Positions 1 to 11,164 of a stretch of DNA of 11,164 bases are shown piece by piece; position 1 is the stretch's first letter; every line of letters starts with the position of its first letter. Both the position numbers and the translations under genes were made by a program. The DNA lies in NCBI GenBank assembly GCA_026387995.1, contig JAPLKQ010000116.1:1-11164 (forward strand). The letters run 5' to 3'. Under the pieces are notes generated by a model. That model had not been told where the DNA came from and searched no databases. It was given only the letters and a program-made list of their open reading frames with translations. This DNA is from Bacillota bacterium. Its GTDB lineage: Bacteria; Bacillota_I; Bacilli_A; RFN20; CAG-826.

Positions 1-231
1 GAAGATGACAAGATCAATGGCGCTACAGGCGACCATCGAGCCGATTTGCTGGTCGCCGCCGAGCGGGCCGCTCTTCATGCAGCGGATGGGTAAACCGGTG
101 GCTTCGATGACCAGTTTTCCCGTCGTCCCGGTCGCAAAGATTTCATGTTTGGACAAAATCTCTTTGTGCCGTATGGCCAAGGCGATCATGTCGGGTTTTT
201 TCTTGTCGTGGGCGATTAAGGCAATGCGCAT
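1..231 (-). CDS. mgsA: Methylglyoxal synthase, N-terminal 77 residues (gene continues beyond the left edge)
   Basis: Converts dihydroxyacetone phosphate to methylglyoxal and phosphate in the cytosol, a bypass of lower glycolysis used when phosphate is short or sugar phosphates accumulate. The 77 visible residues begin [12 protein letters not shown] and contain the family signatures FATGTTGK (residues 32-39) and [11 protein letters not shown] (54-64). Asp60 in the latter aligns with the catalytic Asp of the enzyme, and His8 with the conserved N-terminal His. The family is usually about 130-150 residues, so roughly half the gene is missing past the edge. The start at 231 is preceded by AGAGGAA at a suitable distance. 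A perfect TATAAT lies 44 bases upstream, after the terminator of the flavodiiron gene, so this appears to be a separate transcription unit. Identification is confident from the motifs. Confidence 0.95.
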
Positions 232-274
232 AATGGGTTCCTCTTTTGGGTTTATCGCGATGTTCAGTACATTG

Positions 275-280
275 ATTATA
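275..280 (-). promoter_or_regulatory. Putative -10 element for mgsA
   Basis: Minus-strand TATAAT, exact consensus, about 44 bases before the mgsA start and just after the terminator of the upstream gene. I see no convincing -35 box at 16-18 bases, so only the -10 is claimed. Confidence 0.5.
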
Positions 281-315
281 TAAAAGAATCGGGCGAATAA
301 CACGCCTTTTACGTT

Positions 316-342
316 AAAAAAAGAGCGCTTTGGAGGCGCTCT
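316..342 (-). terminator. Intrinsic terminator of the flavodiiron fusion gene
   Basis: On the minus strand a perfect 7-bp GC-rich stem (AGAGCGC / GCGCTCT) with a 7-base loop is followed directly by a T run. It starts 8 bases after the stop codon of the flavodiiron gene and separates it from mgsA. Confidence 0.88.
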
Positions 343-349
343 CGCTCTT

Positions 350-2816
350 TTAGAATAATTCAGTGAAGGAGGTATGCCGGTTTAAGGCTTCCGTCAGTTT
401 CATCATCTTGCTGTTATCGCCGATGAGGGTGAAACCACAGAGACGGTTGTCCGCAAAATAATACTTTTCGAGGGTGTTCTTAGTGGCGTCGCGGAATTCC
501 ACGGTTTGGTATTTAATCTGCGGGTTCGAGCCATTATCGCCAACGGCGTATAAGCTCGTGTTCATCCCAAAGAATGCCAACGGCGGATTTTCGTAGCGAT
601 AAAGTTTCTCTTCGCCTGCGGCGTTGGCTCCGGCAATCTTCCCCATCTCTAAAGAGGAAGACCATAAGGCATAATTGACCCCGTCAAATTCGACGCAGTC
701 GCCACAGGCATAGATGCCCGAGATATTCGTCTCCATTTTTTCATTCACTTTGATTGAGCGGCCGAGCGTGATGCCCGCCGCCGTCGCGATGCTGACGTTC
801 GGGCGGATGCCACAGGAGATGATGACGAGGTCAGCGGGGAATAACGTCCCGTCAACGAGTTGGACGCCTTCGACTTTGGTCGTTCCGACCATGCCGTCAA
901 TCTTGACGTTGGTGATGACTTTGATGCCTTGGGCCGCGGCCAGATTCTGCATCATGTTCGAGGCCGTTTCATCGAGCTGGCGCATCATGACGCGTGGCGC
1001 GAGTTCAAGCACGGTGACGTGGCAGCCGGCGTTTTTAAGTTCCCAGGCAGCTTCGAGGCCGAGGACGCCGCCGCCGATGACGACGGCTTCAAGCGGGTTC
1101 TTCGTTTTACTGGTTACCAAGTGGTCGATTTTGGCGACGTCGGCAATGCTGCGGATGGCAACGACTTCATTCAGGTTCGCGTTTTTAAAAGGCGGGATGA
1201 ACGAGGTAGCGCCAAGGGCATAAATGCACTTGTCATAGGACAGCGCGGTGCCGTCTACAAACTTCACGGACTTCGCGGCGCCATCGAGGGCCACCACTTT
1301 TTTATTGAGCAGGACGATACGTTGGGCGGCATACCAGGCTTTATCGTGGATGGCGATTTTTTCGCTCGATAAACTGTTGGCAAAATCTTTGGTGAGCATC
1401 GGGCGGTTATAGGGGACTTCATTTTCTTCCCCGATGAGGAGGATTCGCGCGGTTTCATTCCGTAAACGGATCTCTTCGGCGGCAGACACCGCGGCCACGC
1501 CTTGGCCTAAAACGATAAAGGTTTCTTTGGTATTCTTTTTAAATTCATTTTCGGTTTGGTCAAGATAGACGAAGTTTTCTTTCCCGACGCCGCAGACCGG
1601 GCAACGCTCGGGGCCTTCTTCGAAGATGGCGCCGCAGACGAGACATTTCACAAAGCGTTTTTTTGCTGGGGCGGCCGGGGCGGAAATCGTCGCGTCTTTC
1701 ACGGTTGGGGCGGCTAATTTATCGTTTTCTTTGCCAAGCAAGACGCAGCCAAAGTTATAGCCAAATAAATACGCGCCTTCGAGCTCCTCGTCGCTGGGAC
1801 GGAAGCGGACGCGGTAGCCATCGAGGACTTTCAGTTTCAGTTGTTTCAGGCGTTCGATGATATGCGGGACACCTTCGCCGGTCCAGCCATAACTGCCGAA
1901 AGCGCTGGCGAGTTTGCCGCCATGGATGGGAGCGTACATGGAGGTCGTTAAATCCCAGATGGGTTCTAACGCTTCCTGGAGGATGGTGGGCGTGCCGAAG
2001 AGGAGACCATCGGCAAAGCCGATTTCGGTCATGACTTGTTTTTTATCGCTGCCGACCATGTCGAACATCTTGATGGCGACGTCACCGCTTTCGCGGACGC
2101 CTTGGGCGATTTTATCGGCAAGCATCTTGGTATAGCCATAGGCACTGACATATGGCATGATGACGGTCTTTTTCTTATTCGGGTTAGGTACCATGCACCA
2201 CTTCCGGTAAATCTCGATGAATTCAGGGATTTGGATGTCTAATACCGGCCCATGACCCGTGCAAATCATATCGATTTTCAAATCTTTAATACGGTTGAGG
2301 GCATTGACCATGTAGGGCTGCTTGAAGGGTCCGATGATGTTGTCAAAATAATACTTGGCAGCGCGCATGTAGCCGTCGACATCTTCGACGTTGCTCCGGA
2401 GTATTCCCGGATGGCTGTAATGGGCGCCGAAAGAGTCGCAGGTAAATAAGACATGGTCCTCGACTAAGTAGTAGCATATGCTTCAAAAAGCCAATCGCCC
2501 CCATCGAGCCGACAATGATGAGGTTTGGGTTGATTTCCAAAAGCCTTTTTATGCTGCCGGAGTGGTCCGGTTCGGTATGGTTGACGATGAGGTAATGAAT
2601 CCGCTGCACATCGACGATATCGGTAACATTCTTCAAAAAGTCAGTCAAGAAGCCGATTTTAGCGGTCTCCACCAAGGCGGTTTTCTCGCTGCCCTTGATG
2701 ATATAAGAGTTATAGGTCGTGCCGAACTCCGTCATCATGATGATGTCGAAGATACGGAGGTTGGGGTCTTGGATGCCACACCAATAAAGGTCTTTTTTCA
2801 GTTGTTTTGGTTTCAT
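350..2816 (-). pseudogene. Flavodiiron O2/NO reductase fused to flavodoxin, short-spacer rubredoxin and NADH:rubredoxin oxidoreductase; internal deletion with frameshift
   Basis: As an intact protein this would carry electrons from NADH through FAD, rubredoxin iron and FMN to a diiron site that reduces O2 (or NO) in the cytosol. The first segment (start 2816, good up to about 2475) holds the metallo-beta-lactamase-like ligands His80, Glu82, Asp84 and His85 in NHTEPDHSG. The second segment resumes near 2473 with YLVEDHVLF, TCDSFGAHY (Asp ligand) and, 61 residues later, the last His ligand in CTGHG. Counting from the Met at 2368, the other domains are flavodoxin (about 68-212), a rubredoxin-like knuckle with Cys242/245/256/259 (CxxC-x10-CxxC), and FAD/NAD domains (about 283-665) with GQGVAA, GGGVLGLE and YACGDCVE. 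Between the segments about 39 residues expected in the family are absent, including the LHWPD His ligand, and the frame changes. The layout resembles the class F flavodiiron proteins of clostridia. As written the product could not be functional; an assembly error is a real alternative. Confidence 0.9.
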
Positions 2817-2842
2817 TTTCTTTTTCCTTTTTGAGACAATTA

Positions 2843-2861
2843 TCAGTTCTTTATGAACTGA
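2843..2861 (-). repeat. 7-bp perfect inverted repeat in the flavodiiron gene leader
   Basis: TCAGTTC and GAACTGA flank a 5-base spacer, about 27 bases before the ATG at 2816 and downstream of the suggested promoter. It has no T run, so it is not a terminator. It could be an operator or a 5'-UTR hairpin. It does not match the Rex consensus, and I do not recognise the binding protein. Confidence 0.5.
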
Positions 2862-2888
2862 AGATCACGATGACTACGATACTTAACA

Positions 2889-2918
2889 ATGCTACCATAG
2901 AAAAAATCGTAAAGTCAA
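2889..2918 (-). promoter_or_regulatory. Possible promoter of the flavodiiron fusion gene
   Basis: On the minus strand TTGACT (2913-2918) is followed after 18 bases by TAGCAT (2889-2894). The -35 is good and the -10 is mediocre. It lies downstream of the tRNA terminator, where the gene needs its own start. An AAGGA ribosome binding site precedes the ATG at 2816. Confidence 0.4.
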
Positions 2919-2944
2919 ACGACTCACTTGGATATTTTTTAAAG

Positions 2945-2980
2945 AAAAAAGGCTCTTCCCTAGACTGGGAAAAAGCCTTT
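2945..2980 (-). terminator. Intrinsic terminator after tRNA-Leu
   Basis: On the minus strand an imperfect stem (AAAGGCT...TTCCC pairing with GGGAA...AGCCTTT) is followed by a six-T run. It begins about 16 bases after the encoded CCA of the tRNA. A T-rich tract also lies on the other side, so it may work in both directions. Confidence 0.8.
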
Positions 2981-2996
2981 CATTTTTTACTTTTTA

Positions 2997-3082
2997 TGGT
3001 GCGGTCGGTGGGAGTTGAACCCGCATACCTGTTAAGTACTAGACCCTGAATCTAGCGCGTCTACCAATTTCGCCACGACCGC
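2997..3082 (-). tRNA. tRNA-Leu, anticodon CAG, with encoded CCA
   Basis: The minus strand folds as a class II tRNA. The acceptor is GCGGTCG / CGACCGC plus ACCA, there is a D arm with GCG/CGC, and the anticodon stem CTAGA/TCTAG encloses loop TTCAGGG, giving anticodon CAG (reads CUG). The long variable arm TAC/GTA is typical of tRNA-Leu, and the T loop is TTCAACT. The 3' CCA is encoded at 2997-2999. One oddity is a C-A mismatch in the second pair of the T stem (GCGGG against CCCAC). The gene starts 22 bases after the CDF stop codon with no terminator between, so it may be co-transcribed with the exporter. A TATATT at 3092-3097 could instead serve as its own -10. Confidence 0.95.
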
Positions 3083-3104
3083 ACAAGAGATAATATACAT
3101 TATA

Positions 3105-3998
3105 TTATTCTTTTTCGCTATAAGGATTAACGTGGATCATGATGTGTTTCACGAGCGGGAATTCTTTTTCGATTTTTTCATGCACCACTTCGGCGATGAA
3201 ATGCGAGTTCTTCAGCGACATCCGGTTGTCGACGGAGATTTCCAGGTCCACATAGATGCGGGCCCCGAATTGACGGGTTCTGAGGATGTCGATGCGTTTA
3301 ACGCCTTCCACCACGACGATGCTGTCTTTGATGGCTTGCTCGGTTTCCGGGTCGCAGGACTTGTCGACCAATTGCTCGGTCGCTTCCTTAAAGATTCGGA
3401 TGGCGGTAACGACGATGAGCCCACAGATGAGGATGCTCAAAATTGGGTCGAGTAACGGCAAATTGAATAAGCGCGCGCCTAAAATGCCGACGAATGCGCC
3501 GGACGCGGAAATCACGTCGGACTGATGGTCCCAAGCGGCGGCTTTCAAGGCCGTGCTATTGAGCTTTTTGGCGGCGAACATCGTGTACCAATAGAGGAAT
3601 TCTTTTAGGGCAATGGCGATGAGTGCGACGACCCAAGCGAGCGTGCCGGGCGGTTCTAACGTGCCGGAAACTCCGGCCAGGATTTTAGCGACGCCTTCAT
3701 AACCGATGAAGGCCGCAGTCGCGAGGAAAAACATCGACAGGATGATGGCGGCGACCGAGTCAAGGCGTTCATGCCCGAATTGGTGGTCGGCGTCGGCGGC
3801 TTTCTTGGAGGCGCGGACCCCCAGATAGACGACAAATGTCGAAAGGACGTCGCCAATCGAGTTGATGGAGTCGGAAATCAAGGCCTGAGAATTGGCGATT
3901 ATGCCAACGCTGAGCTTGCTCGCGGCTAAAAAGAGGTTGGACACGAATCCAACGGCGGATACTTTCTTGGCGAGTCTAGTGTCTGTATCGGCGTTCAT
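3105..3998 (-). CDS. Cation diffusion facilitator (CDF) family metal exporter
   Basis: A 297-residue inner-membrane divalent metal/proton antiporter of normal family length: about six membrane segments, then a C-terminal cytoplasmic metal-sensing domain (about 205-297). The transport site is visible as Asp43, Asn46 and Asp50 in SDSINSIGD on helix 2 and Asp157 and Asp161 in WDHQSD on helix 5. The FGHERLD signature after helix 2 lies at 74-80. The N/D plus D/D pattern resembles the Mn(II) exporter MntE more than the D/D plus H/D site of the zinc exporter YiiP. Its leader carries a czcD-type riboswitch, pointing to a transition metal such as Fe(II), Co(II) or Ni(II) as inducer. The start at 3998 has AGGAAGG upstream. 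The family is certain; the metal is unresolved. Confidence 0.95.
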   Translation of the reverse strand: MNADTDTRLAKKVSAVGFVSNLFLAASKLSVGIIANSQALISDSINSIGDVLSTFVVYLGVRASKKAADADHQFGHERLDSVAAIILSMFFLATAAFIGYEGVAKILAGVSGTLEPPGTLAWVVALIAIALKEFLYWYTMFAAKKLNSTALKAAAWDHQSDVISASGAFVGILGARLFNLPLLDPILSILICGLIVVTAIRIFKEATEQLVDKSCDPETEQAIKDSIVVVEGVKRIDILRTRQFGARIYVDLEISVDNRMSLKNSHFIAEVVHEKIEKEFPLVKHIMIHVNPYSEKE

Positions 3999-4015
3999 GT
4001 GGGTTGACCCTTCCT

Positions 4016-4050
4016 AATAAAAACCCGTGAAACATATGGAGTCCCACAGG
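4016..4050 (-). terminator. Regulated terminator of the CDF leader, overlapping the riboswitch
   Basis: On the minus strand a 10-bp stem (CCTGTGGGAC pairing with GTTTCACGGG, including G-T pairs) with a 7-base loop is followed by TTTTTATT. Its whole 5' arm is also the 3' strand of the last riboswitch helix plus the conserved GGGAC, so the two folds exclude each other. It probably also ends readthrough from cotH, which has no terminator of its own. Confidence 0.82.
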
Positions 4051-4101
4051 TTAAGGTTCCTGTTGCGCTAAGCCCGGCCTCTTAATAAAGCCTGTCCAGT
4101 T
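4037..4101 (-). promoter_or_regulatory. czcD (NiCo) riboswitch aptamer upstream of the CDF gene
   Basis: The minus-strand leader contains, in order, the blocks I recall from the Clostridium scindens NiCo aptamer: ACAGGC, a short hairpin (CTT/AAG), GGCCGGGC, a small GC-closed loop, GCAACAG, a helix ACAGG/CCTGT and TGGGAC, closed by TGGA/TCCA. The family is a four-way junction described as sensing Co(II)/Ni(II), later also Fe(II), typically upstream of CDF exporters. The terminator that follows reuses the CCTGTGGGAC strand. Ligand binding should therefore block termination and switch the exporter on. The P2 and P3 helices are shorter than in the reference. The identification rests on sequence recognition and hand folding, not on a covariance search. 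Confidence 0.85.
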
Positions 4102-4121
4102 ATTCGGTTTTCATTGACGCT

Positions 4122-4150
4122 ATCATAAACGATATTGGCAATTAATGCAA
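4122..4150 (-). promoter_or_regulatory. Promoter of the riboswitch-CDF-(tRNA) unit
   Basis: On the minus strand TTGCAT (4145-4150) is followed after 17 bases by TATGAT (4122-4127). Transcription would start near 4115, about 14 bases before the aptamer. This gives a leader of about 117 bases before the ATG at 3998. Confidence 0.75.
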
Positions 4151-4155
4151 ATGTC

Positions 4156-5787
4156 TCATAGAGGGAACTTGGCATTCAGATAATTGTTGGTCGAAGTTTT
4201 CTTGCTACTCAGGTAGTTGCTGGTGGTGATATTCTCCCCGGCATCGTTCCCCAAGGTCCAATCCGCAAACGGGAGATCCGTAGGGAAAGTCGCCACGTCA
4301 TCGGCATAATGATCATGATAGATTGTATACATTGCGGTAAACGGCGCCAGCGAGAACCAATCGGAAGCCATATAGGCCCGAATGTTGTCGGCAAACTGGC
4401 GTTGATAGGCAGCGCTGCCGCCGTTGATGACGGTGAATTTATAGAGTGGGTTGACTGTCACGTTGCCATTGGCCGCAATCGTGTTGGCGAACGGATTGAT
4501 ATCCACCATCCCATTCCCGCTCGGGTCCCAATCTTTGGTGACGCCGAGGCAACGGTCCCAGTCGTACGGGATGAAATAGGCAAGATGCGTGGTCTTGGCG
4601 AAATAGAGGTAGTAGTTATTGTAGTTGTTTCGGCAATCATCGGGATTTCCTAAGAGATAGGCCACCGCTTCGAGGCGGAGGAAGCTCGGGATGTCGACTA
4701 AAGCCGCGAGTTGCGCCAGTTTGCTGGCGTTACTATAACTGGTCGTGCTGCTTAAAAAGCCAATTAAGTTGGCGATATCGGAATAATCCGGGGCGCTATC
4801 ATTGGTTTTAAGATCATAGGCGGGGTGATATCCGATTTCTAAATCTTCGATACCGATCAGGCCGTTTTCTTTACGGGTATAGGTTGTTCCGTTGATGTTG
4901 ATTGAGTTCCAAGTGGAAAGCGAGGCGCCCGACCAGTCGCCCGAATTCAAAGGCGCGCCCCAGCCGCATTTATAGAGGTTGCCGCCGGCATCCGCAAGAT
5001 TGAAACGCCGTTGGATAAAGACTTTATCGATACATTCGATGACTTCGTAGAGTCCCAGTTTGTTCGTTGAGGAACCGCCGCCGGGCAGCCCGGTGATGTT
5101 CATCGTGAGGGGAGCCAGGGTCGTTTGAGGCGATAAAACATCCATGGCAGCGAACATTTTGTAGGCATTCGTTTGCCGGATTTGCGTTCCGTCAAGGTTC
5201 TTGTTCCACTTGATATCGATTTTGGTCATGCCGAGAAAAGTCCGTTTGCTGACAAATTCAGTGAATGAGATTTTATAGTGGATGAGGGCAGAAAGCGAAC
5301 CATTATCGTCCATGAATGACCGACGGGAAGTATTGCCTTTCATACGGATGCCGACGTCGTTTAACGTATATTCTTTCAAAGCGCCGCCATCCGGGGTCAT
5401 ATCGATAACCAAGTTGGCGCGGAAATAGTTATCATTATCCGCTTCGATCGGGGATTCATAAGCATCTTGGAGGCCTTTGAGACTGGTATAAGGGGCTGTC
5501 AAGGTAAATTGAAGGACCGTGGTGGGATTAAAAAAATCATAGTAATCCTGCGAAGAGACAAGCGCCATCGTATCATCCTCGGAGGTCGAGGCGGCCGATG
5601 ACGAGCTTTCGCTAGAGGATATAGAAGTCGCCGAAGACGACGCGATTTCCGAGGAGGAATCGAATAGGGAACTCACGCTGGTGCTGGACGAGTTTTCACT
5701 CACGCTGCTCGAGGAGTTGACATTAAAAACGCAGCCGGAAGCCCCGGCCGCAAAAAGAACAAGCGTAACAAGCAGATTTTTGTTCAT
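4156..5787 (-). CDS. CotH-family kinase-like lipoprotein with Ser-rich linker
   Basis: A 543-residue exported lipoprotein. A signal peptide begins MNKNLLVTLVLFAAG and ends at a lipobox ASGC (Cys19). A low-complexity Ser-rich spacer (about 24-70) follows, then a CotH domain (about 90-543). CotH hallmarks are GIRMKGNTSR (147-156), GLYEVIECIDKVF (245-257) near the middle, the NYYLYF segment, and IPYDWDRCLG (406-415), whose DWDR carries the predicted metal/ATP-binding Asp of these atypical protein kinases. CotH phosphorylates spore-coat proteins in Bacillus, but related extracellular forms occur in non-sporulating bacteria, so the substrate here is unknown. The start at 5787 is chosen because the signal peptide begins there and AAGGA precedes it; the in-frame Met at 5835 has no such support and sits next to a TATGAT (5825-5830) that may be the -10. 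No terminator follows the stop; the CDF promoter begins 6 bases later. Confidence 0.85.
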   Translation of the reverse strand: MNKNLLVTLVLFAAGASGCVFNVNSSSSVSENSSSTSVSSLFDSSSEIASSSATSISSSESSSSAASTSEDDTMALVSSQDYYDFFNPTTVLQFTLTAPYTSLKGLQDAYESPIEADNDNYFRANLVIDMTPDGGALKEYTLNDVGIRMKGNTSRRSFMDDNGSLSALIHYKISFTEFVSKRTFLGMTKIDIKWNKNLDGTQIRQTNAYKMFAAMDVLSPQTTLAPLTMNITGLPGGGSSTNKLGLYEVIECIDKVFIQRRFNLADAGGNLYKCGWGAPLNSGDWSGASLSTWNSININGTTYTRKENGLIGIEDLEIGYHPAYDLKTNDSAPDYSDIANLIGFLSSTTSYSNASKLAQLAALVDIPSFLRLEAVAYLLGNPDDCRNNYNNYYLYFAKTTHLAYFIPYDWDRCLGVTKDWDPSGNGMVDINPFANTIAANGNVTVNPLYKFTVINGGSAAYQRQFADNIRAYMASDWFSLAPFTAMYTIYHDHYADDVATFPTDLPFADWTLGNDAGENITTSNYLSSKKTSTNNYLNAKFPL

Positions 5788-5873
5788 GATTCCTTGCTGG
5801 CCTTTCTCGTAAAACGTCACTCCTATCATACACAATTTAAGGGTCTTCTTCTATGGCTTTTTCCATGGATAAG

Positions 5874-5894
5874 AAAAGCCCGTTGGCACGGGCT
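5874..5894 (-). terminator. Intrinsic terminator of the P-loop kinase gene
   Basis: On the minus strand a perfect 7-bp stem AGCCCGT/ACGGGCT with a 4-base loop is followed by TTTTCTTAT, about 40 bases after the kinase stop codon. Confidence 0.82.
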
Positions 5895-5935
5895 CGTTCT
5901 TTTCATAAGGAATGATGGCGTTTTTCAATATTAAT

Positions 5936-6400
5936 CTAAGAGATTACGAAGCATTCGTCGTAAGCATGCTTGACTTCGCTGGACGGTTCTTCGATACGCT
6001 TGTAGAACGACTCCACTACTTCGGGCGGAACCTGCTTCTCGAGGTCGCGTTCCTTGTTTTGTCTTTGGAGGACGTCGAGGGGCTTTATGATGTAGACCAT
6101 GACATGACGCTCGAACTCAGGTGTTTCTTGACGGTAAAAGAGGCGGATTTGGTTCGTATCGTTGACGCCGTCGGCAATAACGATGGCGTTCTTGTCTTTT
6201 TTGGCAAAGTCATGGATCCGCTCACGGAAGGTTGCCCAAACTTTGTCCTGCATTGAGAAATTGCGATAGGAACCAGCGACTTCTTTTCGGACTTCATCGC
6301 TATTGACGATATACACGTGATCATGTTCTTTAGCGTAACGGGCGGCCCACGTCGATTTTCCGGCGCCGGGCACCGCGGTCAAAAGAATAAAAGTTCGCAT
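5936..6400 (-). CDS. Small P-loop kinase of the AAA_33 / polynucleotide-kinase-like type
   Basis: A 154-residue soluble protein with a Walker A motif VPGAGKST (10-17). NSDEVRKE (33-40) has an acidic residue in the position typical of predicted small-molecule or nucleic-acid kinases. A second strand, IVIADGVND (73-81), matches the Walker B-like position. A lid segment with Arg113 and Arg118 followed by QVPPEVVESFYKRIEEP is characteristic of the group. The phosphate acceptor cannot be deduced. It resembles zeta-toxin kinases only in fold, and no antitoxin gene is adjacent. The start at 6400 is preceded by AAGGGAG at 8 bases. It appears monocistronic, with an extended -10 promoter at 6441-6449 and its own terminator. 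Confidence 0.85.
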   Translation of the reverse strand: MRTFILLTAVPGAGKSTWAARYAKEHDHVYIVNSDEVRKEVAGSYRNFSMQDKVWATFRERIHDFAKKDKNAIVIADGVNDTNQIRLFYRQETPEFERHVMVYIIKPLDVLQRQNKERDLEKQVPPEVVESFYKRIEEPSSEVKHAYDECFVIS

Positions 6401-6440
6401 TTTGGTTCTCCCTTGATTGGCTGATAGACAAACCTTTGCT

Positions 6441-6449
6441 ATTATAACA
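6441..6449 (-). promoter_or_regulatory. Extended -10 promoter of the P-loop kinase gene
   Basis: Minus-strand TGTTATAAT is a perfect -10 with the TG extension, about 40 bases before the start codon. No good -35 is seen, which is usual for extended -10 promoters. The TG sits at the end of the T run of the preceding terminator. Confidence 0.7.
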
Positions 6450-6473
6450 AAAATAGGCGGAAACTCCGTCTAT
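6449..6473 (-). terminator. Intrinsic terminator of the small lipoprotein gene
   Basis: On the minus strand a 9-bp stem with one mismatch (ATAGACGGA / TCCGCCTAT) and a 3-base loop is followed by a T run, about 35 bases after the stop codon. Confidence 0.75.
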
Positions 6474-6507
6474 TATTTTTAAAATATTTTGAAACCTTTT
6501 TCCGCTT

Positions 6508-6999
6508 TCATGGCGTTGGGGCGTAAGCGCCGTAGACATCGTCTAAAAAAAGTCTTTCGCTTTCCGCATAATCATCGGTATAGCGGTACTCATAGCCGGA
6601 GAAAGTCACGAAACGGTACTTAAGCGCGGTGGGGTTATAACCGAACTCCATCCAATACGTCGACTCCGTTTGAAAGGCGCCTTTGGCCGCTAAATGAATA
6701 TCGATGGCATATTGTTTTATATACCCATGCGCATAGTTAATATTGAGATTGGGGTCATCCTTGTTGCCCGGGATGGTCCATACGGCGACATTCTCGTAAC
6801 GGGTAATGAGGGTCGCTAGTTCGGTCGGGTCCGTGATGACCGCAGTCCCCTGCAGTTGCGAGCTTAGATAGTATTTCATCGTCACGGAATCAATCCGCGT
6901 CGTATCATAAATGAGAGTGTTTTTGCCTTGGCAACTCTCCAAAGCGAAAACGACTGGCATTAAGAGGAATAAAGAGAAAAATCGGTTTGTGTTTTTCAT
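6508..6999 (-). CDS. Small predicted lipoprotein of unknown function
   Basis: A 163-residue protein I do not recognise. The N-terminus MKNTNRFFSLFLLMPVVFALESC has a short basic stretch, a hydrophobic core and a Cys at 23, consistent with a lipoprotein signal. The -2 residue is Glu, which is unusual for a lipobox. The mature part is mixed polar, rich in Tyr and Thr, with no membrane segment. Most of it reads like a small beta-rich extracellular domain, but no motif supports a name. It has its own extended -10 promoter (7018-7026) with a very short leader, a weak GGAAA ribosome site and its own terminator. The coding call is supported by the signal peptide and these flanking signals. Confidence 0.75.
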   Translation of the reverse strand: MKNTNRFFSLFLLMPVVFALESCQGKNTLIYDTTRIDSVTMKYYLSSQLQGTAVITDPTELATLITRYENVAVWTIPGNKDDPNLNINYAHGYIKQYAIDIHLAAKGAFQTESTYWMEFGYNPTALKYRFVTFSGYEYRYTDDYAESERLFLDDVYGAYAPTP

Positions 7000-7017
7000 G
7001 GGGTGGTTTCCAAAGGA

Positions 7018-7026
7018 ACTATACCA
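7018..7026 (-). promoter_or_regulatory. Extended -10 promoter of the small lipoprotein gene
   Basis: Minus-strand TGGTATAGT is an extended -10, with the start codon only about 18 bases downstream of the box. The leader would be roughly 10-12 bases, barely enough for the weak GGAAA ribosome site. Confidence 0.55.
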
Positions 7027-7050
7027 TAAATCAAAGACTTTTTTAATATC

Positions 7051-7073
7051 AAAAAGGGTTGAAAGTTAACCTT
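7051..7073 (-). terminator. Weak intrinsic terminator of the msrA-fRMsr operon
   Basis: On the minus strand AAGGTT pairs with AACCCTT (one bulged C) across a 7-base loop, followed by five Ts. The stem begins inside the stop codon of the fRMsr gene. It is weaker than the other terminators here. Confidence 0.5.
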
Positions 7074-7530
7074 AAAAGGCTTTTTTGACAAGGATGGCAG
7101 CGATTTTTTCAAGATAGATCTGATCGACGGCGTCGAAGCGGGCGATGTCGTGGCTGTCCACGTCAAGCACGCCGACGACAAAGCCGTCATGGATGAGCGG
7201 GACGACGATTTCGCTGCGCGAGGTGGCGTCACAGGCGATATGACCGGGGAAAAGATGGACATCGGGAACGATCAACGTCTCTTTTCTGCTCGCCGAGGTT
7301 CCGCAAACGCCACGGCCCAAAGGAATGGAAACACAGGCGGGAAGACCTTGGAACGGGCCTAAGATAAGTTCCTCTTTTTTCCGTAAATAAAAGCCGACCC
7401 AAGAAAAAGCATGGAAACGGGACGCGATCAGGGCGCTCGCATTGGCCAAATTCGCCGTCAAATCGTCGGTTTCGGCAAGTAACGCGCCGAGTTCATCAAC
7501 GAGCGTCTCGTATTTTTCCGTTTTCGTCAT
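7072..7530 (-). CDS. Free methionine-(R)-sulfoxide reductase (GAF-domain fRMsr)
   Basis: Reduces free L-methionine-(R)-sulfoxide in the cytosol, recycled by thioredoxin. The 152-residue protein is a single GAF domain with the family signatures WVGFYL (44-49), GPFQGLPAC (58-66), GRGVCGTSA (72-80), VPDVHLFPGHIACD (88-101) and SRSEIVVPL. The three catalytic or resolving cysteines, Cys66, Cys76 and Cys100, have the same spacing (10 and 24) as Cys84/94/118 of the E. coli enzyme. Its ATG overlaps the TGA of msrA by 4 bases, implying translational coupling. With MsrA, which handles the S epimer, the operon covers both epimers of free methionine sulfoxide. No msrB is present in the window. Confidence 0.95.
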   Translation of the reverse strand: MTKTEKYETLVDELGALLAETDDLTANLANASALIASRFHAFSWVGFYLRKKEELILGPFQGLPACVSIPLGRGVCGTSASRKETLIVPDVHLFPGHIACDATSRSEIVVPLIHDGFVVGVLDVDSHDIARFDAVDQIYLEKIAAILVKKAF

Positions 7531-8024
7531 TTTTGCTCGCCTCGTTTGATATGCGCAAAATTAATGTGGCAATAACCCTGCGGATTCTTTTCAAGGTAAT
7601 CTTGGTGATAGTCTTCCGCAAGATAATAATTCGCTTCTTTGGCAATCTCGACGGCAATCGGGTCGCTATAGTATTTTTGTTGCTTGGCGATAAAGGCTTC
7701 TATCGTCTTTTTGTCTTCTTCATCTTTATAATAGACTCCCGTGCGATACTGCAGACCGATGTCGTTGCCTTGGCGGTTGACGCTGGTCGGGTCGATGAAA
7801 CGGAACATGTGGTCTAAAAGTTGAGTCAAAGTGATGACTTTTTCGTCATAGGTGATTTCCACCGCTTCGCTGTGCGTGGCAAGATGATGCTTCAAGTCTT
7901 CGTAAGACGGATTGGGGATATTTCCATTGGCGTAACCGACGCTGGTGTCGAGCACCCCTTTGAGTTTTTTATAATAGGCTTCTACGCCCCAGAAACAGCC
8001 ACCGGCAATAATGATTTTTTTCAT
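7527..8024 (-). CDS. msrA: Peptide-methionine (S)-S-oxide reductase
   Basis: Repairs methionine-S-sulfoxide in proteins and free methionine. The 165-residue protein has the catalytic GGCFWG motif (Cys10), HSEAVEITYD (51-60), which carries the conserved Glu, DPTSVNRQGNDIGLQYR (78-94), and a C-terminal GYCH (Cys152) that may be the resolving cysteine. The start at 8024 is chosen over the in-frame Met at 8063 because GGCFWG then lies at the usual distance, a strong AGGAGG precedes it by 8-9 bases, and the longer version would begin inside or above the promoter. It is the first gene of a two-gene operon with fRMsr. Confidence 0.96.
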   Translation of the reverse strand: MKKIIIAGGCFWGVEAYYKKLKGVLDTSVGYANGNIPNPSYEDLKHHLATHSEAVEITYDEKVITLTQLLDHMFRFIDPTSVNRQGNDIGLQYRTGVYYKDEEDKKTIEAFIAKQQKYYSDPIAVEIAKEANYYLAEDYHQDYLEKNPQGYCHINFAHIKRGEQK

Positions 8025-8043
8025 AGTGAATGACCTCCTGATA

Positions 8044-8052
8044 AATATAGCA
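8044..8052 (-). promoter_or_regulatory. Extended -10 promoter of the msrA operon
   Basis: Minus-strand TGCTATATT, about 20 bases before the msrA ATG, so the start point would lie just before the AGGAGG. A TTGTCC lies upstream with a longer-than-ideal spacer of 19 bases. Confidence 0.5.
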
Positions 8053-8120
8053 TATTCTTCCATATTTAGGACAAACGGGGACTTTTTCAGTTTTGGACTT
8101 TTCTAAAATAATATTAAGTT

Positions 8121-8126
8121 TATAAT
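8121..8126 (+). promoter_or_regulatory. Putative -10 element for the MFS-GH2 operon
   Basis: Plus-strand TATAAT, exact consensus, 30 bases before the ATG at 8157 in an AT-rich stretch. No good -35 at 16-18 bases; a TTGGAC at 8093 is too far. The gap 8064-8156 is the divergent regulatory region between msrA and the MFS gene. Confidence 0.45.
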
Positions 8127-8156
8127 AATTACTAAGTGAATTGAGGGAATGACGTT

Positions 8157-9512
8157 ATGAAAAAAGCACACGCCATAAAACTTTGGCTAGCCATCATCAT
8201 CTTCGCCGCGATCGGCCAAGTCGCCTGGGTCGTCGAAAATGAATTCTTCAGCGTATTCGTTTACGAAATACTCCATGAAGAAACGACCGTCAACGCGATT
8301 GAAGTCATCGCTTGGATGATCGGTGCCAGCGCGATTACCGGTACCTTGACTACTTTGCTGATCGGCGCTTTATCCGACAAAATCGGCAAACGCAAAACAT
8401 TGATTTCCGTCGGTTATATCGTTTGGGGTCTTTCCATCATGAGTTTTGCCCTCATTAACGTCGAAAACTGCGGCCGTTTGTTCGGCACCGTGAGTGCCGC
8501 GTCAACCACCGCTTTAATCGTCATCATCGCTGACTGCCTCATGACCTTCTTCGGGGCCAGCGCCAACGAAGCCGGATTCAATGCTTGGATTACCGATATT
8601 TCAACGAAAGAAAACGGCGGCATCATCGAAGGCGTCCTCGCAATCGCCCCCGTCCTTGCCCTCATTTTCGTCTTTACCAGTTCTTTCTTTGTCGACGGCG
8701 GCAGTTTCCTCCGTTGGCAACTCGTCTATATCGCCCTTGGGTTCGGCACTTTGGTGGCCGGCGTGCTCGGCTTCTTTTTGCTCGAAGATTCGAAGAAACT
8801 TGCTAAAAACACCGATGGATATTGGCGGAACCTTATTTCTGGCTTTAGAATTAAAACCATTAAAAAACACGCCAAGCTTTACCTCATTCTCATCACCTTC
8901 TTTCTTTTCTGCTTGGCGACGGAAATATCGCTCCCCTACTTATTTATTTACTTGCATTATGATTCCAGCTTACTCATCTCGAATCATATGATTGTCTTCA
9001 TTTCGGGCATCGCCCTCTTGGTTGCCAGCGTCGTTTCCATCCTTTATGGACACGCTTTGGACCGTTTTGGCACCAAACATCTCTTGGCGCCGGCGATTCT
9101 TGTCTTCTTTGTCGGCTTGTTCATATTGGCGTTACCTTTATTTAACGGGGCTTCCGCCAATTTAACGATGATCATTATCGGCGTTGTGCTGATGTTCTCA
9201 GGCAATTTCATGGTGGCCACTCATATCGGTATGCTTTACCGTGATGAAACGCCGAAAACAAGCGTCGGCGTCTTCCAAGGCATCCGTGTCCTCGCCACGG
9301 TTTTACTCCCAATGACGATCGGCCCCTGGGTCGGCGCGCGCATCATCCAAAATACATTTACCTTCGTTGAACTCGGCGAAACGACGCCAGTTCCCACGCC
9401 CTGGGTCTTCCTGACCAGCGCTTTGGTTTTGCTTTTGATGATTATCCCGGTTTTCTTTTTACATAAGTTAGAGAAAAAAGAAGAGGACAGGCATGAACCA
9501 GTTAAAGAGTAA
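8157..9512 (+). CDS. Major facilitator superfamily transporter, probably for a sugar or glycoside
   Basis: A 451-residue inner-membrane transporter with about 12 hydrophobic helices. The MFS motif A is visible in the loop between helices 2 and 3 as GALSDKIGKRKTL (70-82), with a weaker copy YGHALDRFG in the second half. The protein begins MKKAHAIKLW and ends in a charged cytoplasmic tail (KLEKKEEDRHE). A GAGGGA ribosome site precedes the ATG at 8157. The substrate cannot be read from the sequence. The 20-base overlap with the downstream family 2 glycoside hydrolase suggests that the two act together on an imported glycoside or oligosaccharide. Confidence 0.9.
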   Translation: MKKAHAIKLWLAIIIFAAIGQVAWVVENEFFSVFVYEILHEETTVNAIEVIAWMIGASAITGTLTTLLIGALSDKIGKRKTLISVGYIVWGLSIMSFALINVENCGRLFGTVSAASTTALIVIIADCLMTFFGASANEAGFNAWITDISTKENGGIIEGVLAIAPVLALIFVFTSSFFVDGGSFLRWQLVYIALGFGTLVAGVLGFFLLEDSKKLAKNTDGYWRNLISGFRIKTIKKHAKLYLILITFFLFCLATEISLPYLFIYLHYDSSLLISNHMIVFISGIALLVASVVSILYGHALDRFGTKHLLAPAILVFFVGLFILALPLFNGASANLTMIIIGVVLMFSGNFMVATHIGMLYRDETPKTSVGVFQGIRVLATVLLPMTIGPWVGARIIQNTFTFVELGETTPVPTPWVFLTSALVLLLMIIPVFFLHKLEKKEEDRHEPVKE

Positions 9513-11164
9513 AGAAAGCGAAGCCATTGACTTTAAAAATGTCCACGGTGAATATCCACGCCCTTATCTACAAAGGGCGTCCTTTTTTAACCTGAACGGC
9601 GTTTGGGATTTTGCCATTAGCAATGCCCCACACGACAATGTGGCGATGACGGGCAAAATTCTTGTCCCCTTTCCGATAGAGTCGCTGCTTTCCGGTGTCA
9701 TGAAACCGCTCAAAAAACATGAATTCCTCATCTATCGCCGGACGTTCACGCTGCCTGAAGGTTTTGTCAAAGACATTACCCTCCTCCACTTCGAGGCCGT
9801 CGATTACGAATGTACCGTTTATTTAAACCACCGCAAAATCTTTTTCCATAAAGGCGGCTACTTGCCTTTCTCTTTCGATATCAGCAATCGCTTATTAGAT
9901 GCCGACAATGAACTGGTCGTCGTCGTCAAGGACGACACCGAGAACGACGGCGCCGCCACCGGCAAACAAAAGATTAAACGCGGCGGCATGTGGTATACCC
10001 CGTGCTCAGGCATCTGGCAAAGCGTTTGGATCGAGAGCATGAATGCCCTTTTTATCGAAGACCTCAAAATCACTCCAAATATCGATTCCAAGACCGTTTC
10101 TTTTGAAATCAAGACCCCAGACCCTCACGGGGAAATAACAGTCAAGGACGGCGAGGAAACCGTCGCCCAGATGAAATTTGTGTCTTCCCACGTCGAGTTG
10201 GCAATCCCCCACCCCAAACACTGGTCGCCTGAACACCCGAATCTCTACGATGTCGAGATTACGACGCCGACCGATAAAGTTATCAGTTATTTTGCGATGC
10301 GTAAGGTCGGTATCGGTCAATCGGCCTATGGACCCTGCTTAACGCTCAATGATAAGCCCTATTTCATGAACGGCGTGCTTGACCAAGGCTACTACAGCGA
10401 CGGCAATTACAGCGCTCCGAGCGAAGAAGCCATCGTGAACGATATTTTGACAATGAAAAAACTGGGTTTCAATACCTTAAGAAAACATATTAAAGTCGAA
10501 GACCGCCGTTTCTATTACCAATGCGATAAATTAGGCATGCTCGTCTGGCAGGATATGCCTTCCGGCGGCCGATATTCCTTTATGAACATGACTATTCGCC
10601 CCACTCTCGGTTTCACCAAACTCAGCGATTCGGCTTATAGCCTTTTTGGCAGGCAAAAAGAAACGAACCGCAAAGATTTCATCGATGAAACCTGGTCAAC
10701 AATCAAACTATTAGGCCACTACCCCTGCATCGTCATGTGGGTCATCTTTAATGAAAAGAGATTGCTGCCGCCGTCAAAAAGGAAGATCCAACACGCCTCG
10801 TCGATCATGCGTCCGGCTGGTTCGACCAAGGCGGAGGCGACGTCGACTCGATACACACCTATTTCCGGAAACTCAAATTTCTTCCTGACAAGCTGAAACG
10901 TCCGGTCATCTGCAGTGAATTCGGCGGTTACTCGCATCAAATCAAAGACCACATCTTTAATCCTGTTAAAGAATATGGATATCGCAAATTTCCTGTCCAA
11001 AAAGATTTTGAGAACGCGGTCGTACGACTTTATGAAGAAGAGGTCATTCCCGCGATTAAAACGGGATTATGCGCTGCTATATATACACAATTATCCGACG
11101 TAGAGGACGAAACCAACGGATTTCTGACCTATGACCGTCAGGTATTGAAAGTCGACGAAAAACG
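9493..11164 (+). pseudogene. Glycoside hydrolase family 2 (beta-galactosidase/beta-glucuronidase type), frameshifted and running off the right edge
   Basis: Would hydrolyse a beta-glycoside by the retaining mechanism. No signal peptide is seen, so it acts in the cytosol on what the overlapping MFS gene imports. The first frame (9493 to about 10755) holds the sugar-binding fold (about 25-175, with LNGVWDF and GIWQSVWIE), an Ig-like domain (about 180-275), and the start of the TIM barrel with FMNGVLDQGYYSDG, LGFNTLRKHIKVE, GMLVWQDMPSGG and MWVIFNE, Glu421 being the acid/base. The -1 frame resumes at about 10755 with KEIAAAVKKEDP, TRLVDHASGWFDQGGGD, the nucleophile Glu in ICSEFGGYS (codon 10917-10919), and YTQLSDVEDETNG. 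Between FNE and KEIAAA the usual GWGQFD stretch of about 7 residues is missing. The start at 9493 has GAGGA 5-8 bases upstream. Pseudogene or assembly error cannot be told apart here. Confidence 0.9.

Follow-up and report, generated by a model that had tools for sequence, protein, structure and literature searches.

A NiCo/czcD-family riboswitch candidate with antitermination layout precedes a cation exporter whose metal site is of the manganese type

The stretch of DNA analysed here, the window, comprises 11,164 nucleotides (JAPLKQ010000116.1, positions 1 to 11,164) of GCA_026387995.1, a draft assembly of 1,146,374 bases in 216 contigs that is 82.86% complete. Its minus strand carries, in order, a CotH-like gene, a possible promoter, an aptamer overlapping a terminator, a probable ribosome-binding site, a CDF cation exporter gene and tRNA-Leu(cag). 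The CotH-like gene (PF08757) has its stop at 4156, 47 nt upstream of the aptamer. By reading, a possible sigma-70-type promoter occupies 4122..4150 (TTGCAT at 4150-4145, a 17-nt spacer, TATGAT at 4127-4122), and transcription would be expected to start near 4115; a promoter scan lists the overlapping TTTGCA-18-TATGAT with 9/12 matches, one found against 0.6 expected, which is not above chance. There follow the 72-nt NiCo/czcD-family aptamer (4037..4108), recognised by RF02683, our own model R1 and conserved positions; an intrinsic terminator hairpin (4022..4052, with its 5' arm at 4052-4041); a U run (4019..4023); and AGGAAGG (4009..4015), read as the probable ribosome-binding site. The exporter gene (3105..3998, 297 aa) begins 38 nt past the end of the aptamer on the same strand and is the only CDF found in the incomplete source assembly.

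Two other regions of the minus strand were read along the way. At 350-2816 lies a flavodiiron-type protein (ODP and flavodoxin domains) with rubredoxin-like and pyridine-nucleotide reductase domains, its coding region divided between two overlapping frames (2343-2816 and 350-2368) in a manner that resembles a frameshift or an assembly error. Positions 7072-8063 hold an MsrA gene (TIGR00401) and, next to it, a frame that has no NCBIfam match and that we take to be a GAF-type free-methionine-sulfoxide reductase; together the two would make up an oxidative-stress neighbourhood not far from the exporter gene.

The initial annotation had named ACAGGC, GGCCGGGC, GCAACAG and TGGGAC as the ordered blocks of a czcD aptamer, and all four occur in that order between 4095 and 4041 of the minus strand. 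A cmscan search matches RF02683 (NiCo) over its full length at 4108-4037 with 26.7 bits (E 0.018 against all 4227 families); this falls short of the family's gathering score of 37 bits, a curation threshold, and we counted the shortfall against the aptamer reading. Across the 1.15-Mb assembly the aptamer is the sole NiCo match at E <= 0.001 (E 4.4e-4). R1, a model with a hand-written structure built on 22 aligned relatives and leaving out the window and locus L067, scores it at 39.8 bits, with E-values of 1.4e-9 genome-wide and 1.4e-10 across 29 sources. The covariance search that the annotation had proposed as a check thus succeeds with the clade-specific model but not at the Rfam threshold. 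Of the positions that at least 90% of 35 relatives share, the aptamer matches 20/20, including the Gs in GCCGGG and in GGGAC. The R1 score, this intact core, the helices described below and the site before a CDF gene bear out the family assignment, and the conclusion that the element, judged by its sequence, is an additional member of the already known NiCo/czcD class holds. One could instead suppose a plain terminator of the CotH-like gene, which lies on the same strand and stops close upstream, with an accidental likeness to an aptamer; but R1 finds the aptamer untrained on the window, and a CDF gene follows it directly in the fitting orientation, which makes such a coincidence scarcely credible.

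Relatives were collected with RF02683 at four taxonomic ranks: family (196 genomes, 3 with a match), order (279 genomes, 10 with a match), class (395 and 18) and phylum (382 and 13, which added none); the four sets overlap, each includes the window, and any search of more than 40 genomes runs under stricter filtering, at the cost of weak matches. Thirteen more relatives and one second copy (L094, like L087 and in the same genome) came from families around three other hits. The window's RF02683 score is the second-lowest among 23 accepted loci, after that of L066. Four loci, L066, L079, L080 and L081, reach 25.6-33.1 bits, likewise below the cut-off, and each precedes a frame read as a transporter, a CDF in the first three; since all four were in R1, that model is no independent check on them. 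The Rfam cut-off misses likely members, namely these four and the window. L067 (24.3 bits with RF02683) was rejected, as it lies inside a frame read as a permease and R1 does not find it. Elsewhere in the collection, the genes behind the aptamers L081 (1501-1590, minus) and L074 (1501-1597, plus) read as P-type ATPases, not CDFs. The well-scoring aptamer L070 (1098-1176, plus; 69.6 bits with R1) is possibly an orphaned switch: no CDF was read downstream of it, and the first long frame to follow, at a distance of 192 nt, looks like an ABC ATPase.

All of helices P2, P3 and P4 are present in the window aptamer, again on the minus strand. P2 (4076..4092) is the hairpin GGCUUU-AUUAA-GAGGCC, with six pairs (two of them G-U), a loop of 5 and its outer three pairs conserved; P3 (4065..4073) has two standard pairs, G4073-C4065 and C4072-G4066, and the loop UUAGC. 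P4 (4046..4063), the antiterminator, joins ACAGG (4063-4059) to CCUGU (4050-4046). The core GGG of GCCGGG (4073..4075) is G in 35/35 relatives, and in GGGAC (4041..4045), which also belongs to the terminator 5' arm, the first G is kept in 32/35 and the second G, third G and A in 35/35. Excerpts of the published structure describe Co(II) coordinated by G46, G47, G87 and G88 (PMC7689651); matched by motif to the numbering in those excerpts, GGG at 4073-4075 would correspond to G45-G47, and GGGAC at 4041-4045 to the region holding G87/G88. The aptamer spans 72 nt against 96 model positions, and P2 and P3 are indeed short, as an earlier description of it as a minimal version of the class had it; the description does not set it apart, since 5/35 relatives measure 69-72 nt. 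In one relative (L090, 1501-1574, plus) P2 has shrunk almost to its conserved base (GGCCTTTTGGAGCC).

P1 is the weak point. Only 2/4 canonical pairs can form in the window, which we counted against the aptamer reading. The minimum-free-energy fold contains a shifted register of four pairs, UGGA (4095..4098) with UCCA (4037..4040); as an equally long helix arises in 54% of shuffles, we do not treat this register as shown. Of that shuffle scan only the row for the window is used, since in at least L002, L003, L068, L069 and L071 it mistook CAAAC for the CAGGC block; P1 in relatives is judged from the alignments. The window aptamer also has one nucleotide fewer after A14, and so does L066. Covariation supports the helices as a set: over 36 sequences, in an alignment that was itself fitted to the structure, it amounts to 0.494, against 0.256 +- 0.015 when shuffled and at most 0.150 when slid, and 6/6 pairs of P4 show changes on both sides. 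A first alignment of 22 relatives, made with MAFFT and without structure, gave 0.518 against 0.262.

Downstream, the terminator (4052-4022, U run 4023-4019) forms 12 pairs at -15.8 kcal/mol, with a 10-pair core of CCTGTGGGAC and GTTTCACGGG; the 10-bp terminator and U run sharing a strand with the aptamer, claimed on first inspection, are borne out, CCTGT being common to terminator and P4. Because both helices need that same strand, they are mutually exclusive. No shuffle of the downstream DNA (0/200) gave as good a stem score, and 3/22 swaps with a relative's downstream DNA equalled it, as expected if the terminator arm is common to relatives. In the window and the first 22 relatives, the set to which the terminator tests were confined, a U-tailed stem with its 5' arm at the P4 3' strand and GGGAC was found in 23/23 leaders. 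It stands out (no more than 0.5% of 200 shuffles as good) in 18/23, the window included, and by a bulge-free score does not in L065, L066, L076, L079 and L081 (5/23). Swapping downstream regions lowers the mean stem score from 22.5 to 15.3, so terminator arms tend to fit their own leader; some arms interchange, most swaps being as good for the same five loci.

When growing transcripts are folded, P4 appears by 70 nt, the shifted P1 by 82 nt and, by 94 nt, the terminator. At full length, the best structures that contain the terminator and those that lack it reach the same -25.3 kcal/mol in a model that ignores metal and kinetics, a tie we counted against the switch. Just before the aptamer, UGAAAACC (4106-4113, minus) can pair with GGUUUUUA (4018-4025, terminator arm and U run), a possible second antiterminator that may be due to chance. 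Excerpts of PMC7689651 and PMC7917058 describe the class mechanism as terminator-overlap antitermination. That the P4 3' strand is the terminator 5' arm, in a layout recurring in relatives, points to a transcription-antitermination ON switch, and the antitermination logic ahead of an exporter gene, as initially annotated, stands on the evidence of layout, overlap and gene position. With metal absent, the nascent RNA would pair AACCUGUGGGAC with GUUUCACGGGUU, form the terminator and leave the CDF gene silent. With metal present, the GGG in GCCGGG and the GG in GGGAC, which form the G-rich core, would be held together, P4 would keep CCUGU on ACAGG, the terminator would be blocked and the exporter made. 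We consider it very probable that the leader is a NiCo/czcD-family riboswitch acting by transcription antitermination; metal binding, the direction of control and the metal's identity are what we infer from its sequence.

The target gene is clear: the protein scores 224.1 bits with TIGR01297, above the cut-off, and has PF01545 and PF16916 domains, which, with the shared strand and short distance, supports the earlier call of a CDF exporter. In CDFs, site A holds the transported ion between two TM2 and two TM5 residues (PMC6465983, excerpt). By alignment, site A of the window CDF is N46 D50 - D157 D161 (ND-DD). Among 32 aptamer-linked CDFs, 30 are HD-HD, one is ND-ND (L076) and one, the window's, is ND-DD; this count excludes the false locus L067, the second copy L094, L092 (read only in part), L070, behind which no CDF was read, and L074 and L081, whose genes read as other transporters. 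A comparison set of 39 CDFs comes from loci in related genomes at which R1 detected no aptamer: 25 are ND-DD, 8 DD-DD, 4 HD-HD (L010, L012, L014, L097) and 2 ND-ND (L108 and L110 omitted; L096 is the L002 locus). Since these unlinked CDFs were selected for similarity to that of the window, their contrast with the linked set is no random-sample test. L076 (1501-1587, plus), with the only other non-HD-HD linked CDF compared, groups by its exporter with the riboswitch-free ND-ND CDFs L013 and L109. The idea that small aptamers go with a particular type of exporter was rejected, since HD-HD CDFs follow the 69-72-nt aptamers of L065, L066, L079, L080 and L095.

What the site implies for the metal is less direct. 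The specificity of S. pneumoniae MntE for Mn comes from ND-DD (PMC6465983), and DxxxD in TM5 is a mark of Mn-CDFs (PMC1868760), according to the parts of these papers drawn on here; other excerpts argue that no simple rule leads from the site A residues to the metal across CDF clades (PMC5703985), and report that findings on what Asn does in ZnT10 conflict (PMC6465983). The window CDF reaches none of the NCBIfam equivalog cut-offs. It scores 108.7 bits with MntE (NF052621; cut-off 500), less than with MamM (201.6), MamB (172.2) and FieF (137.2), while DmeF, a Co/Ni-type model, gives the lowest score among the ten NCBIfam models listed (28.3 bits).

A tree built without the four site columns (65 rows, LG+G4) joins the window CDF to those of L005, L008, L009 and L098 (98/99), which are ND-DD or DD-DD and at whose loci no aptamer was found. 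This tree drops no_L011, no_L012, no_L014, no_L021, no_L024 and NiCo_L077, chosen after long branches had been seen. In it, the window and its four kin have as their sister group (98/87) a set of aptamer-linked HD-HD CDFs that also includes L097, HD-HD and without an aptamer found by R1. L097 (G075) belongs to the same genus as L002 and L003, and by the R1 search its aptamer is lost or absent. Under a second tree model the window's group has 15 rows, the window branching first (SH-aLRT 99, then 92); nine riboswitch-free ND-DD/DD-DD CDFs (L099-L107) fall with this group there and apart from it in the 65-row tree. The hypothesis that the ND-DD/DD-DD CDFs all go back to one origin has an AU p of 0.102 in a quick tree (71 rows, C20) and 0.042 in a careful one (65 rows, LG+G4), and we do not regard it as firmly rejected. 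L005 (G014, 1-2484) has the same order of CotH (40% identical), CDF and tRNA-Leu(cag) as the window; there, one base is shared between the stop codon of CotH and the start of the CDF, and no leader exists.

The riboswitch could be on its way out in the window, as perhaps it went in the sister lineages, leaving the terminator as a constant attenuator. The RF02683 score near the bottom of the accepted loci, the damaged canonical P1 and the lack of a found aptamer at the four closest kin are in keeping with decay, but nothing is missing from the conserved core or from P4, the terminator is intact and strong, and a dead aptamer before such a terminator would silence the only CDF found in the genome; we think this quite unlikely. 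Mapped on a 71-row tree, aptamer presence needs at least 6 changes, a count that is undecisive between retention and gain. Because the nearest outside group is mostly aptamer-carrying, we favour the view that the window retained an ancestral riboswitch lost in its sisters rather than gained one. A bolder reading, which we put forward tentatively, is that in this lineage a CDF under czcD-riboswitch control swapped HD-HD for ND-DD, so that an old riboswitch now drives a new pump and the in-cell ligand must suit both, that is, Mn(II) or Fe(II). If so, the window is the sole stage found here in which the old riboswitch sits on a manganese-type pump.

The ligand of the class is itself disputed, Ni/Co having been proposed first and Fe(II) in later work (PMC7689651, PMC9434800, PMC9294342, all in excerpt). 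Binding values given in part of PMC7689651 for the Eba czcD aptamer are 61 nM for Ni, 93 nM for Zn, 120 nM for Co, 400 nM for Fe and 11 uM for Mn, the weak Mn binding counting against an Mn(II) signal; an excerpt of PMC9434800 gives the calculated occupancy of a czcD riboswitch in E. coli as 74.6% Fe(II) and 9.7% Mn(II), the shares of Ni and Co being negligible. On a classical account Ni(II)/Co(II) are both the signal of the window's switch and the cargo of the CDF, despite its ND-DD site. The class is described in these terms, as Ni/Co sensing and exporter activating, in excerpts of PMC7689651 and PMC7266159, and with every conserved core position kept the ligand preference need not differ from that of relatives; yet the site is unlike that of 30/32 linked CDFs, the DmeF score is poor, and the later class work excerpted from PMC9434800 favours Fe(II) in cells. 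We regard this account as possible but doubtful. Alternatively, the aptamer may have been retuned to Mn(II) as the exporter changed, through its broken canonical P1 and lost nucleotide, given that the site A shift, a junction one nucleotide shorter and a non-canonical P1 all meet at one locus. Against this, the aptamer core is unchanged, L066 lacks the same nucleotide yet has an HD-HD exporter, and an imperfect canonical P1 also occurs in L079, L080, L081, L092, L093 and L095; the P1 and A14 features, then, do not track exporter type. We rejected the gap after A14 as a mark of retuning, given L066, and hold retuning as a whole to be improbable.

On balance, excess Mn(II) and/or Fe(II) seems to us somewhat the likelier physiological signal, with preference over Ni(II)/Co(II) resting on the ND-DD exporter and on riboswitch-free closest kin that are ND-DD or DD-DD; the name "NiCo" may then be that of the wrong metal for this switch. 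A class member driving a transporter with a manganese-type site bears on the disputed ligand of the czcD/NiCo class, and since sensor and pump should agree on metal, the locus offers a direct and cheap ligand test. Among the titles and abstract openings listed by literature searches on the class, none describes the pairing of a NiCo/czcD aptamer with a manganese-type CDF, which may still have been published.

Three known systems place the locus. For a manganese exporter, one would expect the yybP-ykoY Mn(II) riboswitch (RF00080), which would resemble the element in metal-responsive control; it has no match at E <= 0.001 in the incomplete source assembly and none in the window. With MntE-type manganese CDF exporters the window CDF shares the site A quartet ND-DD, but it differs in scoring lower with the MntE model than with the magnetosome/FieF models MamM, MamB and FieF, and in its place in the trees, which is among aptamer-linked HD-HD CDFs and outside the large ND-DD clade (of 19 rows in two other trees, 17 in the 65-row tree). 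With the NiCo (czcD) riboswitch RF02683 it shares the four-helix layout, the 20 conserved core positions, a terminator overlapping P4 and GGGAC, and a CDF gene downstream; it differs in its 72-nt length, short P2 and P3, half-formed canonical P1 and score below the curated one, and in driving an exporter of ND-DD instead of HD-HD type.
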